From positions 1 through 33,830 of the forward strand of contig DUNK01000009.1 in the NCBI GenBank assembly GCA_012839355.1: 33,830 nucleotides of DNA. Direction: 5' to 3'. Shown here piece by piece: positions 27,060-33,292 of the stretch. Positions within the stretch are counted from its first letter, which is position 1. Every line of letters starts with the position of its first letter. Position numbers and translations under genes: made by a program. The notes under the pieces were generated by a model. The model did not search any database, was not told the DNA's origin, and saw nothing but the letters and a program-made list of their open reading frames with translations. The DNA is from Acholeplasma sp. GTDB taxonomy: Bacteria; Bacillota_I; Bacilli_A; Acholeplasmatales; UBA5453.

Positions 27060-27146
27060 ATAATTAAGTTAAGTTTTTAAAATACTATGTTTTTACTAGG
27101 ATTTCATTTATAAGGAATTATAATTGAAACATAATTGGAGATTGTT

Positions 27147-27437
27147 ATGAAGTATTGTAAATATTGCGGAAGTGAAATTTATATAGATTCAGAGATTTGT
27201 TTAAACTGCGGCAGAAGAGTTTCTGAGATAGAAGCTAAGGCGGATAATAGTGTAACTTTGGGGTTGGTTGCTCTTATAGTTGGTATGTTTATACCGCTTG
27301 TTGCATGGATTGTTGGTGGTATTGGCTTATCTGTTGCTAATAGAACAAACAATAGCGTAGGCAAAAAATTAAATGTAGCTGCTATAATCATCGGCACAAT
27401 CGTGTTTTTATTCGCGTTTGCTATGCTTTCACAATAA
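27147..27437 (+). CDS. zinc-ribbon membrane protein
   Basis: A 96-aa protein with an N-terminal zinc ribbon (MKYCKYCGSE ... CLNCGRR, a CxxC pair twice) followed by two hydrophobic helices (about 38-60 and 73-94). Proteins of this build (zinc_ribbon_2 plus DUF4190-like helices) are common in Firmicutes and have no known job. GGAG (27136-27139) lies 7 nt before the ATG and TATAAT (27119-27124) is a possible -10 with no good -35. A decayed copy of its ribbon follows directly downstream. Confidence 0.8.
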   Translation: MKYCKYCGSEIYIDSEICLNCGRRVSEIEAKADNSVTLGLVALIVGMFIPLVAWIVGGIGLSVANRTNNSVGKKLNVAAIIIGTIVFLFAFAMLSQ

Positions 27438-28135: not shown

Positions 28136-29041
28136 ATGAGAAAATTTATTTTAAGTATTTTAGTTTTAGTATTAGGCGTTGTACTAGTAGGATGTAAAGG
28201 GAAAGAAGAAACAATTAAAGTTTACACTAGAGATACAACGAGTGGAACAAGAGGAGCATTTTTTGAAATTATCGGCCTAAAAGCACTTGCTGAATCTAAT
28301 GATGGTTTAGTAGATGGATATATAGAAGCATCCACTAATGGCGATATGATGGATTCAGTTAAAAATGATAAAAATGGAATTGGTTATATTTCATTATCAG
28401 GATTAAGTGGATCAGGTCTTAAAGGTTTAGAGTTTAATGGTGTCGCTGCAACTGAAGCAAATGTATTAAATGATACATACGAATTAAAGAGACCATTTAT
28501 GTATATTCGCAAAGCTGATGCAGATATTGGATCAGAGATTGAAAAACAATTAGTAGCAGCATTCTTAGCGTTTATGGATTCAAAAGATGGTAAAGAAATT
28601 ATTAAGAATAAAGATGGTATTGTCGGTGGAATAGATACAGCACCAACATGGGATAGCATCAAAGATCAACATGCTGCGGCATTAGCAGAAGGCGATCAAG
28701 TTGAAATTCACTTTGGTGGCTCAACATCAGTTGAAAAAATTGCAAGAGCATTATCATCAGCATTCTCAGCATTAGCACCAAGATTTAAGCCTATGCACAA
28801 TCATACAGGTTCAGGTGCAGCTTATGAAGGAACTAGAGCAGATGGTAATTTACACATTGGTTTTGCAAGTAGAAACCTAAAAGACACAGAAAGTGGTACT
28901 GGCGTTATATATGGAAGACTTGCATGGGATGCAGTAGTAATAGTAGTTAATAGTGAAAATGAACTTAATAACATTACTACAGAACAAGTAAAAGATGTCT
29001 ATACAGGAGAAATAAAAAACTGGAAAGATTTACGTAACTAA
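28136..29041 (+). CDS. pstS: phosphate-binding lipoprotein PstS, circularly permuted
   Basis: Substrate-binding lipoprotein of the Pst phosphate ABC importer. The signal peptide ends in VLVGC, so Cys20 is lipidated. The order of parts is reversed from ordinary PstS. Residues 27-170 hold what is usually the C-terminal half (phosphate motif TRDTTSGTR at 31-39, GIGYISLSGL at 81-90, YELKRPFMYI). Residues 188-301 hold what is usually the N-terminal half (GGSTSVEKIA at 194-203, TGSGAAYEG at 224-232, IGFASRNLKD at 241-250, YTGEIKNWKDL at 289-299). The protein stops where ordinary PstS continues into the SGTR motif. All expected phosphate-contact motifs are present once, so it should bind phosphate. 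It overlaps pstC as TAATG. Confidence 0.93.
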   Translation: MRKFILSILVLVLGVVLVGCKGKEETIKVYTRDTTSGTRGAFFEIIGLKALAESNDGLVDGYIEASTNGDMMDSVKNDKNGIGYISLSGLSGSGLKGLEFNGVAATEANVLNDTYELKRPFMYIRKADADIGSEIEKQLVAAFLAFMDSKDGKEIIKNKDGIVGGIDTAPTWDSIKDQHAAALAEGDQVEIHFGGSTSVEKIARALSSAFSALAPRFKPMHNHTGSGAAYEGTRADGNLHIGFASRNLKDTESGTGVIYGRLAWDAVVIVVNSENELNNITTEQVKDVYTGEIKNWKDLRN

Positions 29042-29964
29042 TGGATAAAGCGAAAAAGCGAAATAGACGAATTGATAAAATAGCTAAAAACATCTTATTG
29101 TTTACAGCTATTTTATCAGCGTTATTTATAGTACTTATAATTGTAATAGTTGCATTGCGCGGTTTTAGACCGTTTTTCTTGAGTTATGATGGTCATAAAG
29201 TTAGTTTCTTTAAGTTTATTACTGGAACTAGGTATTTTGCACCAGAATATAGAATCGGCTATATAATTATTAATACGATGTACGTAGTTCTTTTATCTGT
29301 TCTCGTTAGTGCGCCCATTTCTGTTTTAACAGCCCTTTTTGTCGCAAAAATGGCGCCGAAAGTATTAAGTAATATTTTAACGACAACAATCGAAGTCCTA
29401 GCATCAATACCTTCTATAATTTTTGGGATGTTCGGAAAAGGATATGTAGTAATATTAGTAAGAAACTTCGCTGATAAAATAGGCATAGTTACCGCAGGTG
29501 GACAGTCAACACTGGCAACAGTTATTGTTTTATCGATGATGATTATGCCTACTATTACAATGTTATCAATTACGGCAATTAAGTCTGTTCCAGAAGATAT
29601 GGAACATGGCTCTTTAGCGCTTGGTGCAAGTGAAACTCAAACAATGTTTTGTATTAGTTTAAATGCAGCTAAGCCTGGGATATTTGCAGGTATAATTTTA
29701 GGTGTTGGTCGTGCTTTAGGTGAAGCAACCGCAGTGACGATGGTTGCAGGCGGTCGTGGTAGTGGACCAACATTTAGTTTATTTTCAACAACAAGAACAT
29801 TAACTTCAACAATCTTAACAGGTATTCATGAAGCCAATTTTGGTTCACTAGAATACGATATAAGATTTTCTATTGGGTTGGTGCTTATTGTTGTTATTTT
29901 AGTTGTAAATATCATTTTAAACGCTGTGAAGAAAAGGTTAGGAAGATATTATGAACCGAGTTAA
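29041..29964 (+). CDS. pstC: phosphate ABC transporter permease PstC
   Basis: Integral-membrane half of the phosphate channel. The hydrophobic segments include one near residues 17-40 and a series from about 73 to the end. The permease coupling region has EHGSLALGASETQTMF followed by GIILGVGRALGEATAV. The length of 307 aa is normal. The ATG overlaps the pstS stop and the end overlaps pstA by 14 bp, so translation is coupled. Confidence 0.97.
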   Translation: MDKAKKRNRRIDKIAKNILLFTAILSALFIVLIIVIVALRGFRPFFLSYDGHKVSFFKFITGTRYFAPEYRIGYIIINTMYVVLLSVLVSAPISVLTALFVAKMAPKVLSNILTTTIEVLASIPSIIFGMFGKGYVVILVRNFADKIGIVTAGGQSTLATVIVLSMMIMPTITMLSITAIKSVPEDMEHGSLALGASETQTMFCISLNAAKPGIFAGIILGVGRALGEATAVTMVAGGRGSGPTFSLFSTTRTLTSTILTGIHEANFGSLEYDIRFSIGLVLIVVILVVNIILNAVKKRLGRYYEPS

Positions 29965-31168
29965 TAAAAGAAAAGTTATTGATACGAGTTTAAAAGTAAT
30001 TACATATATAGCTTCCTTTATAGCAGTTATTATTTTAGGAGCGATATTGTTTTTTGTGTTTAGTAGAGGAAGTAAGTTATTATCGTTTAAAATATTAGTA
30101 ACAGATTATCATTCAAAACCTTACCGTTTAGAAACAACAGTAAGCGCGAAAGGCTTAAGTTTTGAAAATCCGCACATCAAGGATGCTTATTTTTCTGAAA
30201 ACTTTGGCTTTGCGGTAAAAGATGATTATACATTAGAAGGTATTAAAACAATTAGATTTGTTTACATAGATGATAACTCACCACTTAAAACTACAATAAA
30301 CGAACAAGGAGAAAAGTCTCCATTCAAAGAAGGTTTTATTTTTGATTCAACAATGCGTGCAGTTTTAGAAGATGAATCTACAGTTACGATATTTAGTAGA
30401 TATGGTGCTGAAAATCTTGTTAATGTTTTAAGTGATGCTGTTGGGATACAAACAGCCAATGTTAAATCTGAAGGTGGAGGTATTAGAGGTTCTATTATTA
30501 CAACATTATATTTAATTTTCTTGACATTAATTATTGGACTCCCTTTTGGAATATTAACGGCACTTTATTTACATGAGATAGCACCCCAAAATAAAGTTAC
30601 TAATTTATTAAGATCATTTATTGATATGTTAACAGGAGTACCATCTATTATTTTTGGATTAATGGGTGCAGCAGTATTTATCCCTTTAACATCAGCACTA
30701 TTTAGTAACCCTGATATGAAAAGAGGTTCAGTTATTGCAGGGGCATTAACACTAGTTGTAATAATTTTGCCAGTAGTTATTAAGGCAACAGAATCAGCTT
30801 TATCAGTTGTTCCTAAATCATATAAAGAAGGTTCACTCGCTTTAGGTGCAACAAAGACACAAACAATTTTTAAGATAATGTTACCAAATGCTTTACCAGG
30901 AATATTATCAGGAGCGATTTTAAGTGTTGGTAGAGTTATTGGTGAGTCGGCAGCGTTAATTTTTGCGATGGGAACATTTATCGGTGATAAAATTAGTATT
31001 ACAGGTAGATCAACTTCGCTTGCAGTCCATATTTGGTCGGTAATGGGTGGAGAGATTCCAAATGTTAATTTAGCTAGTACGATTGCAATTATAATCTTGA
31101 TTGTCGTCTTAGCGCTAAACATGAGTGTTAAAGTGATTACTAATAGTTTTATGAATAAATATAAGTAG
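29951..31168 (+). CDS. pstA: phosphate ABC transporter permease PstA with extra extracytoplasmic insertion
   Basis: Second permease of the Pst system. TM1 spans about residues 15-36; the core permease resumes at [17 protein letters not shown] (about 175) and carries the coupling loop [16 protein letters not shown] and [10 protein letters not shown]. Between them lie about 130 residues (40-172, e.g. [39 protein letters not shown]) where ordinary PstA has only a short loop, which explains the 405-aa length compared with the usual ~290. By topology this insertion faces outward, next to PstS. AGGAAG lies before the ATG. A domain name for the insertion is not recognisable. Confidence 0.95.
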
Positions 31169-31176
31169 GTGAAATT

Positions 31177-31923
31177 ATGTTTAAAGTAGAGAATATGTCA
31201 TTATATTATGGCGATAAAATGGCTTTAGAAAACATTAATATGGAAATTAAAGAAAAAGAAGTTACAGCCTTTATTGGACCTTCTGGTTGTGGTAAATCAA
31301 GTTTTTTAAGAAGTTTAAATAGAATGAATGATTTAATTGAAGAAGCGGTCACTACAGGAAGTATTAAATTAAAAGGTAGTAATATTTATGATAGAAAGTA
31401 TGATGTAATAGAATTAAGAACTAAAGTTGGGATGGTGTTCCAAAGTCCTAACCCGTTTCCAATGTCTATATATGAAAATGTGGCTTATGGTCCTAAAAGA
31501 CAAGGCGTTAGAAATAAAAAAGTTTTAAAAGAGATAGTTGAAAGAAGTTTAAAACAAGCAGCTCTTTGGGAAGAAGTACATGATAGATTGCATGAATCAG
31601 CAATGAAACTTTCGGGCGGCCAACAACAAAGATTGTGTATCGCAAGAACTTTAGCGATGGAACCTGAAGTTATTTTGATGGATGAACCTACTAGCGCACT
31701 TGATCCGATTGCAACTCAAAAGATTGAAGATTTAATTAGAGAACTAAAAAATGATTATACAATCGTAATTGTTACTCACAATATGCAACAAGCGGCACGT
31801 ATTAGTGATAAAACGGCATTCTTTTACTTGGGAGAGTTAATTGAATTTGACGAAACAACGAAGATTTTTAGTAAACCAAAATATGAACAAACAGAAAAGT
31901 ATATTACCGGGAGATTTGGCTAA
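31177..31923 (+). CDS. pstB: phosphate ABC transporter ATP-binding protein PstB
   Basis: ATPase of the importer. Walker [10 protein letters not shown] (33-41), Q-loop [19 protein letters not shown], signature [13 protein letters not shown], Walker [12 protein letters not shown] and switch His in [13 protein letters not shown] are all intact. The length of 248 aa is normal. TAGGTGA precedes the ATG. Its stop overlaps a TAATG that is not the likely phoU start. Confidence 0.99.
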
Positions 31924-31925
31924 TG

Positions 31926-31934
31926 TGTTATAAT
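31926..31934 (+). promoter_or_regulatory. possible internal extended -10 promoter before phoU
   Basis: TGTTATAAT matches the extended -10 TGnTATAAT exactly, just after the pstB stop. No -35 is visible, which extended -10 promoters can do without. It would give basal phoU-phoP-phoR transcription when the PHO-box promoter is off. Confidence 0.45.
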
Positions 31935-31952
31935 GACATAAGGGGAAAAATA

Positions 31953-32615
31953 ATGAATTTAAGAAAATGGTTGGAGATTGCAATCGAGGATTTAAAGAAA
32001 GATGTCTATAAAATGGCAACAATGGTTATCACTAACATTAGCGACAGTTTAAAAGCCTTTGAAGAAAACAATTTAGATATGGCTGAAGAAATTAAGTTAC
32101 GAGACATTGAAGTTGATGAGATGGAAGATGTTATTTCTAAAAAAGTTTTAGAGATTATTTGGAAAGAACAACCTTTAGCGAGCGACTTAAGATTAGTTAC
32201 AGGGATTTATAAACTAATTACGGATTTAGAAAGAATTGGAGATCATGCTAGAGATATAGCTAATATTACTATTAAGACTCATAAACTTGACCATGAAAGA
32301 TTACTCCCAATTACAATTAAAATGGCAAAAATAGCCAATCAGATGGTTCTTGATAGTGTTGAAGCATTCTTTAAGATTGATGTTAATTTAGCAATTGATA
32401 CGATTAATAAAGATGATGAAGTTGATTCATTATTTAACGAATTAACATTACTTGCGATTGATGATTTTAAACATAATAAGATTGATCATGAGTTTGGAGT
32501 ATATTTACTATTTGTTGCTAAATATATTGAAAGAATCGCAGACCATGCAACTAACATTTGTGAGTGGTTAATATATATAGTAAGAGGAAGCCCTAGAATA
32601 ACAAGTATCCTTTAA
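31953..32615 (+). CDS. phoU: phosphate signalling regulator PhoU
   Basis: Cytoplasmic all-helical regulator linking the Pst transporter to the PhoR kinase. Two PhoU repeats are visible, each with the metal-binding helix: YKLITDLERIGDHARDIANI (first) and FVAKYIERIADHATNICEWL (second). The length is 220 aa. ATG 31953 is chosen because AGGGG (31941-31945) lies 7 nt upstream and MNLRKWLE fits the family start; an upstream ATG at 31923 has no ribosome site. Confidence 0.96.
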   Translation: MNLRKWLEIAIEDLKKDVYKMATMVITNISDSLKAFEENNLDMAEEIKLRDIEVDEMEDVISKKVLEIIWKEQPLASDLRLVTGIYKLITDLERIGDHARDIANITIKTHKLDHERLLPITIKMAKIANQMVLDSVEAFFKIDVNLAIDTINKDDEVDSLFNELTLLAIDDFKHNKIDHEFGVYLLFVAKYIERIADHATNICEWLIYIVRGSPRITSIL

Positions 32616-32626
32616 GGAGGTAAAAT

Positions 32627-33292
32627 ATGTTAGTCTATTTTGTTGAAGATGATACGAGTATTGCTTATATTATTGATAAAACATTAGAAAAACTTGGCGT
32701 TGATAAAAAAGGCTTTATCACCGGACAAAGTTTTATTGATGCATATGATGAGCAAAAACCAGATTTAATTTTATTAGACATTATGTTACCTGACACTTCA
32801 GGTATTGAACTTTTAAAATATGTTAGAAAAGATGATAAAGAAATACCAATTATCATTATTTCTGCCTTATTTAACGAGATGGATAAAGTTATTGCGTTAG
32901 ATAGTGGGGCTGATGACTATATTACTAAACCGTTTGGACTTTTAGAGTTAACTTCAAGAATTCAAGCTAAGTTAAGAAAAGTTAGTGATAAATCAACAAT
33001 TAACTTTCATGATATTAAAATCGATTTAAAACAATACAAAGTATATGTTAAACAAGCAGAAGTAAGTTTAACTAATAAAGAATATGAGATATTTAAATAT
33101 ATGATTGAAAATGCTGAAAATGTTTTAACGAAAGAAGATATCTTTTGCGCAGTTTGGAACTCTGATTTTATGGGTGAAACAAGGGCTTTAGATATGCATA
33201 TTAAAGCTTTAAGACAAAAACTAAAAGAAGCGAACTCAGAAGTTAAAATTGAAACAGTCTATGGTATTGGCTACAAGATAGGAATTATTTAA
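32627..33292 (+). CDS. phoP: OmpR/PhoB-family response regulator PhoP
   Basis: Two-component response regulator. The receiver domain (1-115) has the acidic pair Asp8/Asp9, phosphoacceptor Asp51 (LILLDIMLP), and the conserved Lys in YITKPFG. The winged-helix DNA-binding domain (about 125-221) has LTNKEYEIFKYMIEN, TRALDMHIKALRQKL and TVYGIGYKI. The length of 221 aa is normal. A strong AAGGAGGT precedes the ATG. Its place after pst-phoU and the 11-bp TTACA repeats upstream of pstS argue that it is the phosphate regulator. Confidence 0.95.
   Translation: MLVYFVEDDTSIAYIIDKTLEKLGVDKKGFITGQSFIDAYDEQKPDLILLDIMLPDTSGIELLKYVRKDDKEIPIIIISALFNEMDKVIALDSGADDYITKPFGLLELTSRIQAKLRKVSDKSTINFHDIKIDLKQYKVYVKQAEVSLTNKEYEIFKYMIENAENVLTKEDIFCAVWNSDFMGETRALDMHIKALRQKLKEANSEVKIETVYGIGYKIGII

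Follow-up and report, generated by a model that had tools for sequence, protein, structure and literature searches.

In a 33,830-nucleotide stretch of Acholeplasma sp. DNA (the window), the gene at 28136–29041 encodes a lipoprotein that is a circularly permuted PstS, with the C-terminal half of the canonical protein placed first and the N-terminal half last. We put at about 0.92 the probability that this gene encodes the lipoprotein that binds phosphate for a PstSCAB importer, with in-frame tandem duplication followed by trimming as the likeliest route to the permuted order. The permuted form is inherited and not peculiar to the genome that carries it, and the same order is already present in a pneumococcal crystal structure, 4H1X.

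Gene, motifs and half order

The permuted gene and its parts, followed by the downstream genes of the operon, are as follows.

28136–29041, + strand: permuted pstS gene, 301 residues, an ATG-to-TAA reading frame whose TAA stop shares one base with the pstC start codon
28136–28195, + strand: residues 1–20, a lipoprotein signal peptide ending in the lipobox LVGC, read from the sequence (Cys20 at 28193–28195)
28208–28630, + strand: PstS C-type half, here in first place (about residues 25–165), located with a half-specific profile and phmmer against canonical PstS; contains R32..SGTR, GIGYISL, NVLNDTYELKRPF and the terminal helices
28631–28699, + strand: linker, residues about 166–188, joining the former C- and N-termini, without a match in canonical PstS
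28700–29032, + strand: PstS N-type half, here in last place (about residues 189–299), located with a half-specific profile and phmmer; contains GGSTS, GSG, ASR, DAVVIVVN and GEIKNWKDL
29041–29964, + strand: pstC, permease (TIGR02138, 204.7 bits against a cut-off of 196.45)
29951–31168, + strand: pstA, permease (TIGR00974, 205.9 bits against a cut-off of 193.45)
31177–31923, + strand: pstB, ATPase (TIGR00972, 424.1 bits against a cut-off of 343.2)
31923–32615, + strand: phoU (TIGR02135, 181.4 bits against a cut-off of 130.25)
32627–33292, + strand: OmpR/PhoB-type response regulator (PF00072 and PF00486, both above cut-off)

The motifs placed first are R32...S36-G37-T38-R39, GIGYISL (82–88) and ..LKRPF, and those placed last are GGSTS (194–198), GSG (225–227), SR (245–246) and GEIKNW (291–296); apart from ..LKRPF, which it did not mention, they stand where a preliminary description of this DNA had placed them. 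Every motif is present once, ruling out a tandem duplication inside the window gene, as that description had also held. The C-type half extends to about residue 165 and is followed by a linker of ~23 residues and then the N-type half; across permuted proteins the linker between the half profiles has a median length of 27 residues (range 16–34). The phosphate-site motifs GSTS, GSG, SR and R..SGT are all present and align with canonical PstS in phmmer comparisons with PDB sequences. Among 53 permuted relatives, residues R32, S36, G37, T38, S196, S226 and S245, which correspond to canonical phosphate-binding motif positions, are invariant, and Cys20 is at least 90% conserved.

Profile searches reflect the exchanged halves. 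Pfam PF12849 (PBP_like_2) matches at 88.1 bits against a gathering score of 27, and the canonical-order NCBIfam profile TIGR02136 reaches 143.4 bits, below its curated cut-off of 206.6, in each case as two separate stretches. The TIGR02136 shortfall is expected of a permuted order, yet is formally a miss, and we class the window protein as a permuted relative of PstS, outside that model. Permuted proteins are named only 'substrate-binding domain-containing protein', because curated PstS models split them and score low.

Rotation of the mature protein restores the canonical order. Each form was scored by its best single stretch against each of 74 canonical PstS proteins, and the median taken: the unrotated window protein gave 50.0 bits and 40% coverage, and rotation at residue 188 gave 96.9 bits and 88% coverage. 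Five other rotation points yielded 65–96 bits and 50–79% coverage, none better on either measure, although rotation at residue 140 was nearly equal on score (95.7 bits). Against 93 permuted proteins (itself counted), the unrotated protein aligned end to end with 163 bits and 98% coverage. Consistent with these results, phmmer against the PDB matched the canonical PstS structures 4q8r, 4gd5, 1twy and 4n13 as two swapped stretches and matched 4h1x in one stretch (window residues 24–298 to 4h1x 8–263, E = 1.1e-24). An AlphaFold2 model of the window protein built with 53 rows (mean pLDDT 95.4, pTM 0.87) had 4h1x as its top match in Foldseek, a structural search that keeps sequence order (E = 3.8e-27, TM 0.90 by target length, 276 columns, 27% identity), and aligned with canonical PstS only in fragments of 90 columns (4gd5) and 67 columns (1twy). 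The model thus has no normal-order match to canonical PstS, and the close homologues are themselves permuted rather than collinear with it, so the permutation proposed in the preliminary description is borne out by sequence and structure comparison alike.

The closest known counterpart, S. pneumoniae TIGR4 SP_2084 (PstS2, 4H1X), shares with the window protein the permuted order, cut site, lobes and linker position, and its gene is likewise the first of a pst operon, one that includes phoU2 (PMC4913102). It differs in its shorter linker and in sequence, with the 27% identity of the structural alignment. A second system in pneumococcus is canonical (PstS1); in its own genome, the window protein was the only match found. 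Canonical PstS of C. perfringens (4GD5/4Q8R) and V. cholerae (1TWY) shares, after rotation, all phosphate-site motifs and the two-lobed fold, but has the other half order, a lipid or free N-terminus on lobe 1 and at most 90 columns alignable in order. The window protein is much less novel than the preliminary description implied, with the order common in its class and solved as 4H1X. The order has been in the PDB since that structure's release in 2012, apparently as an unnamed kind, and our search for a paper describing a permuted PstS, limited to openly licensed literature and therefore weak evidence of absence, found none. The second-best Foldseek match was the glycine betaine-binding OpuAC of B. 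subtilis (2B4L, 3CHG), a protein of another ligand and family (TM about 0.5, 12–15% identity); circular permutation has been reported between glycine betaine-binding proteins (PMC2395249). PstS and OpuAC are type II proteins, and no type I sugar-binding protein was among the 50 Foldseek matches listed.

As the preliminary description stated, the gene carries an intact signal peptide and leads a normal pst operon. The arrangement is general: wherever a permuted locus had 2.5 kb or more of sequence after pstS (54 loci), pstC-pstA-pstB followed, in 49 cases with phoU as well. Phosphate binding for PstCAB is the most likely role, judging from the operon, the conserved phosphate-site residues and pneumococcal Pst2 genetics: a pneumococcal strain without Pst1 still imports phosphate, and encapsulated cells require either Pst1 or Pst2 (PMC4913102). 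The response regulator presumably controls the operon, a role suggested by its position. Between dnaJ and pstS, at 27135–27437 (+), lies a gene for a small zinc-ribbon and two-helix membrane protein with a weak DUF4190 match.

Distribution and number of origins

The permuted form is standard among relatives of the window genome and is present in three bacterial phyla. It is carried by about 88 of the 296 genomes of the class to which the window belongs (counted from listed single-stretch matches), and a sample of the phylum agrees; it occurs further in 11 of 349 genomes from the phylum of Christensenella hongkongensis (Clostridia) and in 7 of 198 Spirochaetota genomes, all from searches that used a permuted query and so underestimate the canonical share. 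Plasmids of Monoglobus pectinilyticus and Treponema saccharophilum each carry a permuted PstS heading pstC-pstA-pstB-phoU. Small genomes of the neighbouring family that are reminiscent of phytoplasmas have no pstS. Two separate permuted pstS genes adjoin in one genome (G107, L129:4496–6514, −), and another (G232) holds a permuted and a canonical PstS together (L126, L160), like pneumococcus.

The swapped order may have arisen once or several times independently (in Bacilli, the Monoglobus/Treponema group, Streptococcus and others). With the halves rotated to one order, a 180-row tree has one branch, weakly supported (SH-aLRT 67), with all 105 permuted units on one side and all 75 canonical units on the other. 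An 81-row tree with the junction columns removed needs three changes and has an unresolved backbone, and the second permutation described below shows that further ones arise. A tree constrained to keep the permuted rows together is 0.03 log-likelihood units worse (p-AU 0.50), and every group examined has the same cut site and linker position, though constraints of the fold could cause both. A single origin, suggested at first by the 180-row tree, agrees with the data but is unproven in view of the 81-row tree and the AU test; we regard several origins as a possibility of roughly one in three.

Tandem genes and a second permutation

Relatives of the window gene include in-frame tandems. Writing the halves as N and C, two fetched loci encode NCNC tandems of canonical PstS (L002:2536–4128, +; L114:2850–4481, −; 531–544 residues), both in Clostridia-type genomes and of the intermediate type needed for the first permutation. 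Tandems of permuted PstS in the order CNCN occur in five genomes (L051, L166, L167, L168 and L169; 593–678 residues), and one locus encodes a CNCNCN triple of 910 residues (L170:1281–4010). Every tandem is one reading frame behind a single N-terminal region. Duplication recurs, because neighbouring copies are 74–99.7% identical in nucleotides (81–99.7% in the CNCN and CNCNCN genes), the two most similar pairs being from draft genomes.

One genus holds both a tandem and a trimmed product. A single-contig genome (G042) encodes the 593-residue CNCN tandem of L051, and a genome of the same genus (G050) encodes instead a single 309-residue lipoprotein (L175:3846–4772, −), arranged as C-tail, N half and C-head, with its gene eight bases upstream of pstC. 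Residues 25–306 of the latter align in one stretch to 135–414 of the tandem at 48% identity, and the best matches of its model (pLDDT 90.6) were canonical PstS structures, over about 222 columns. L175 is a second circular permutation, with its cut near the point equivalent to residue 132 in the window protein; among 88 genomes of the family, it was the only single gene found in this order. On the simplest reading, a CNCN tandem gave rise to the G050 protein by losing its two ends, and this pairing of a tandem with a collinear shorter protein supports duplication and trimming as the route.

The older permutation probably has a similar origin, in an NCNC tandem: pstS would have been duplicated in frame, and the first N-type half and last C-type half would then have been lost. 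The route is seen most directly for L175 and not for the older permutation behind the window protein. Living NCNC tandems do not adjoin the permuted clade in the 81-row tree, a position that speaks against L002 and L114 as its direct ancestors. We lean, by a little, towards a broader reading in which pstS has been repeatedly duplicated in frame and trimmed, with canonical tandem, permuted, permuted tandem and re-permuted forms all extant and with the tether moving from lobe 1 to lobe 2 and back again in the L175 species. If this is true, pstS offers a natural series showing the duplication route to circular permutation step by step. The tandem and re-permuted relatives are more interesting than the window protein itself: they represent real intermediates of a route that is usually only inferred.

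Tether position and competing explanations

In the permuted protein the C-type half follows the lipobox, the linker bridges the former termini, and the chain now ends just past the NW.dL motif; both new termini are predicted to lie in lobe 2. Phosphate would be bound between the two lobes and handed to PstC/PstA as by any PstS. The motif map and predicted secondary structure indicate that lobe 1 is now continuous and lobe 2 split, so that the lipid tether would pull on lobe 2 and not on lobe 1; the shift of the tether between lobes put forward in the preliminary description follows from this sequence-level picture and stands to that extent. For studies of transport, the consequence would be natural PstS pairs that should differ in the tethered lobe.

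The permuted order could be adaptive rather than a neutral by-product of duplication, with a tether on lobe 2 aiding docking to and release from PstCA in tethered, wall-exposed cells. A lipobox is kept in most permuted proteins, 92 of 99 by a strict pattern, with some of the remaining seven having one by eye. The authors who described TpMglB-2 of Treponema pallidum raised the same idea for that protein, another lipid-tethered binding protein whose chain is naturally permuted in a circular way (proposed 'Type Ic'; PMC4990184). TpMglB-2 differs from the window protein in its Type I fold, glucose ligand and other cut site with an added fourth crossover, and the window protein falls outside Type Ic, which is defined by a Type I fold and a permuted MglB. 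Against an adaptive order, the permuted proteins that lack a lipobox are chiefly Spirochaetota members (L107–L109, L111), the tether of L175 appears to have gone back to lobe 1 within the same order, and one genome (G232) has both forms, so that neither order looks compulsory. We consider an adaptive origin unlikely.

A fusion of two halves from different binding-protein genes, considered also for TpMglB-2 (PMC4990184), would look identical to a one-gene permutation by order alone, and the NCNC tandems demonstrate that halves of neighbouring copies can join. However, both halves of the window protein specifically match PstS, and the identities of its N- and C-halves to 104 permuted units correlate (r = 0.85), with nearest relatives shared; the two halves thus have a common history, and a fusion of unrelated halves is very improbable. 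An assembly join, cloning artefact or pseudogene can be dismissed, the first two as in the preliminary description: the window comes from a draft genome (41 contigs, 86% complete), but the reading frame is intact with its signal peptide and overlaps the pstC start, and the same order recurs in 93 independent single-copy reading frames, single-contig genomes among them, and in the crystal structure 4H1X.
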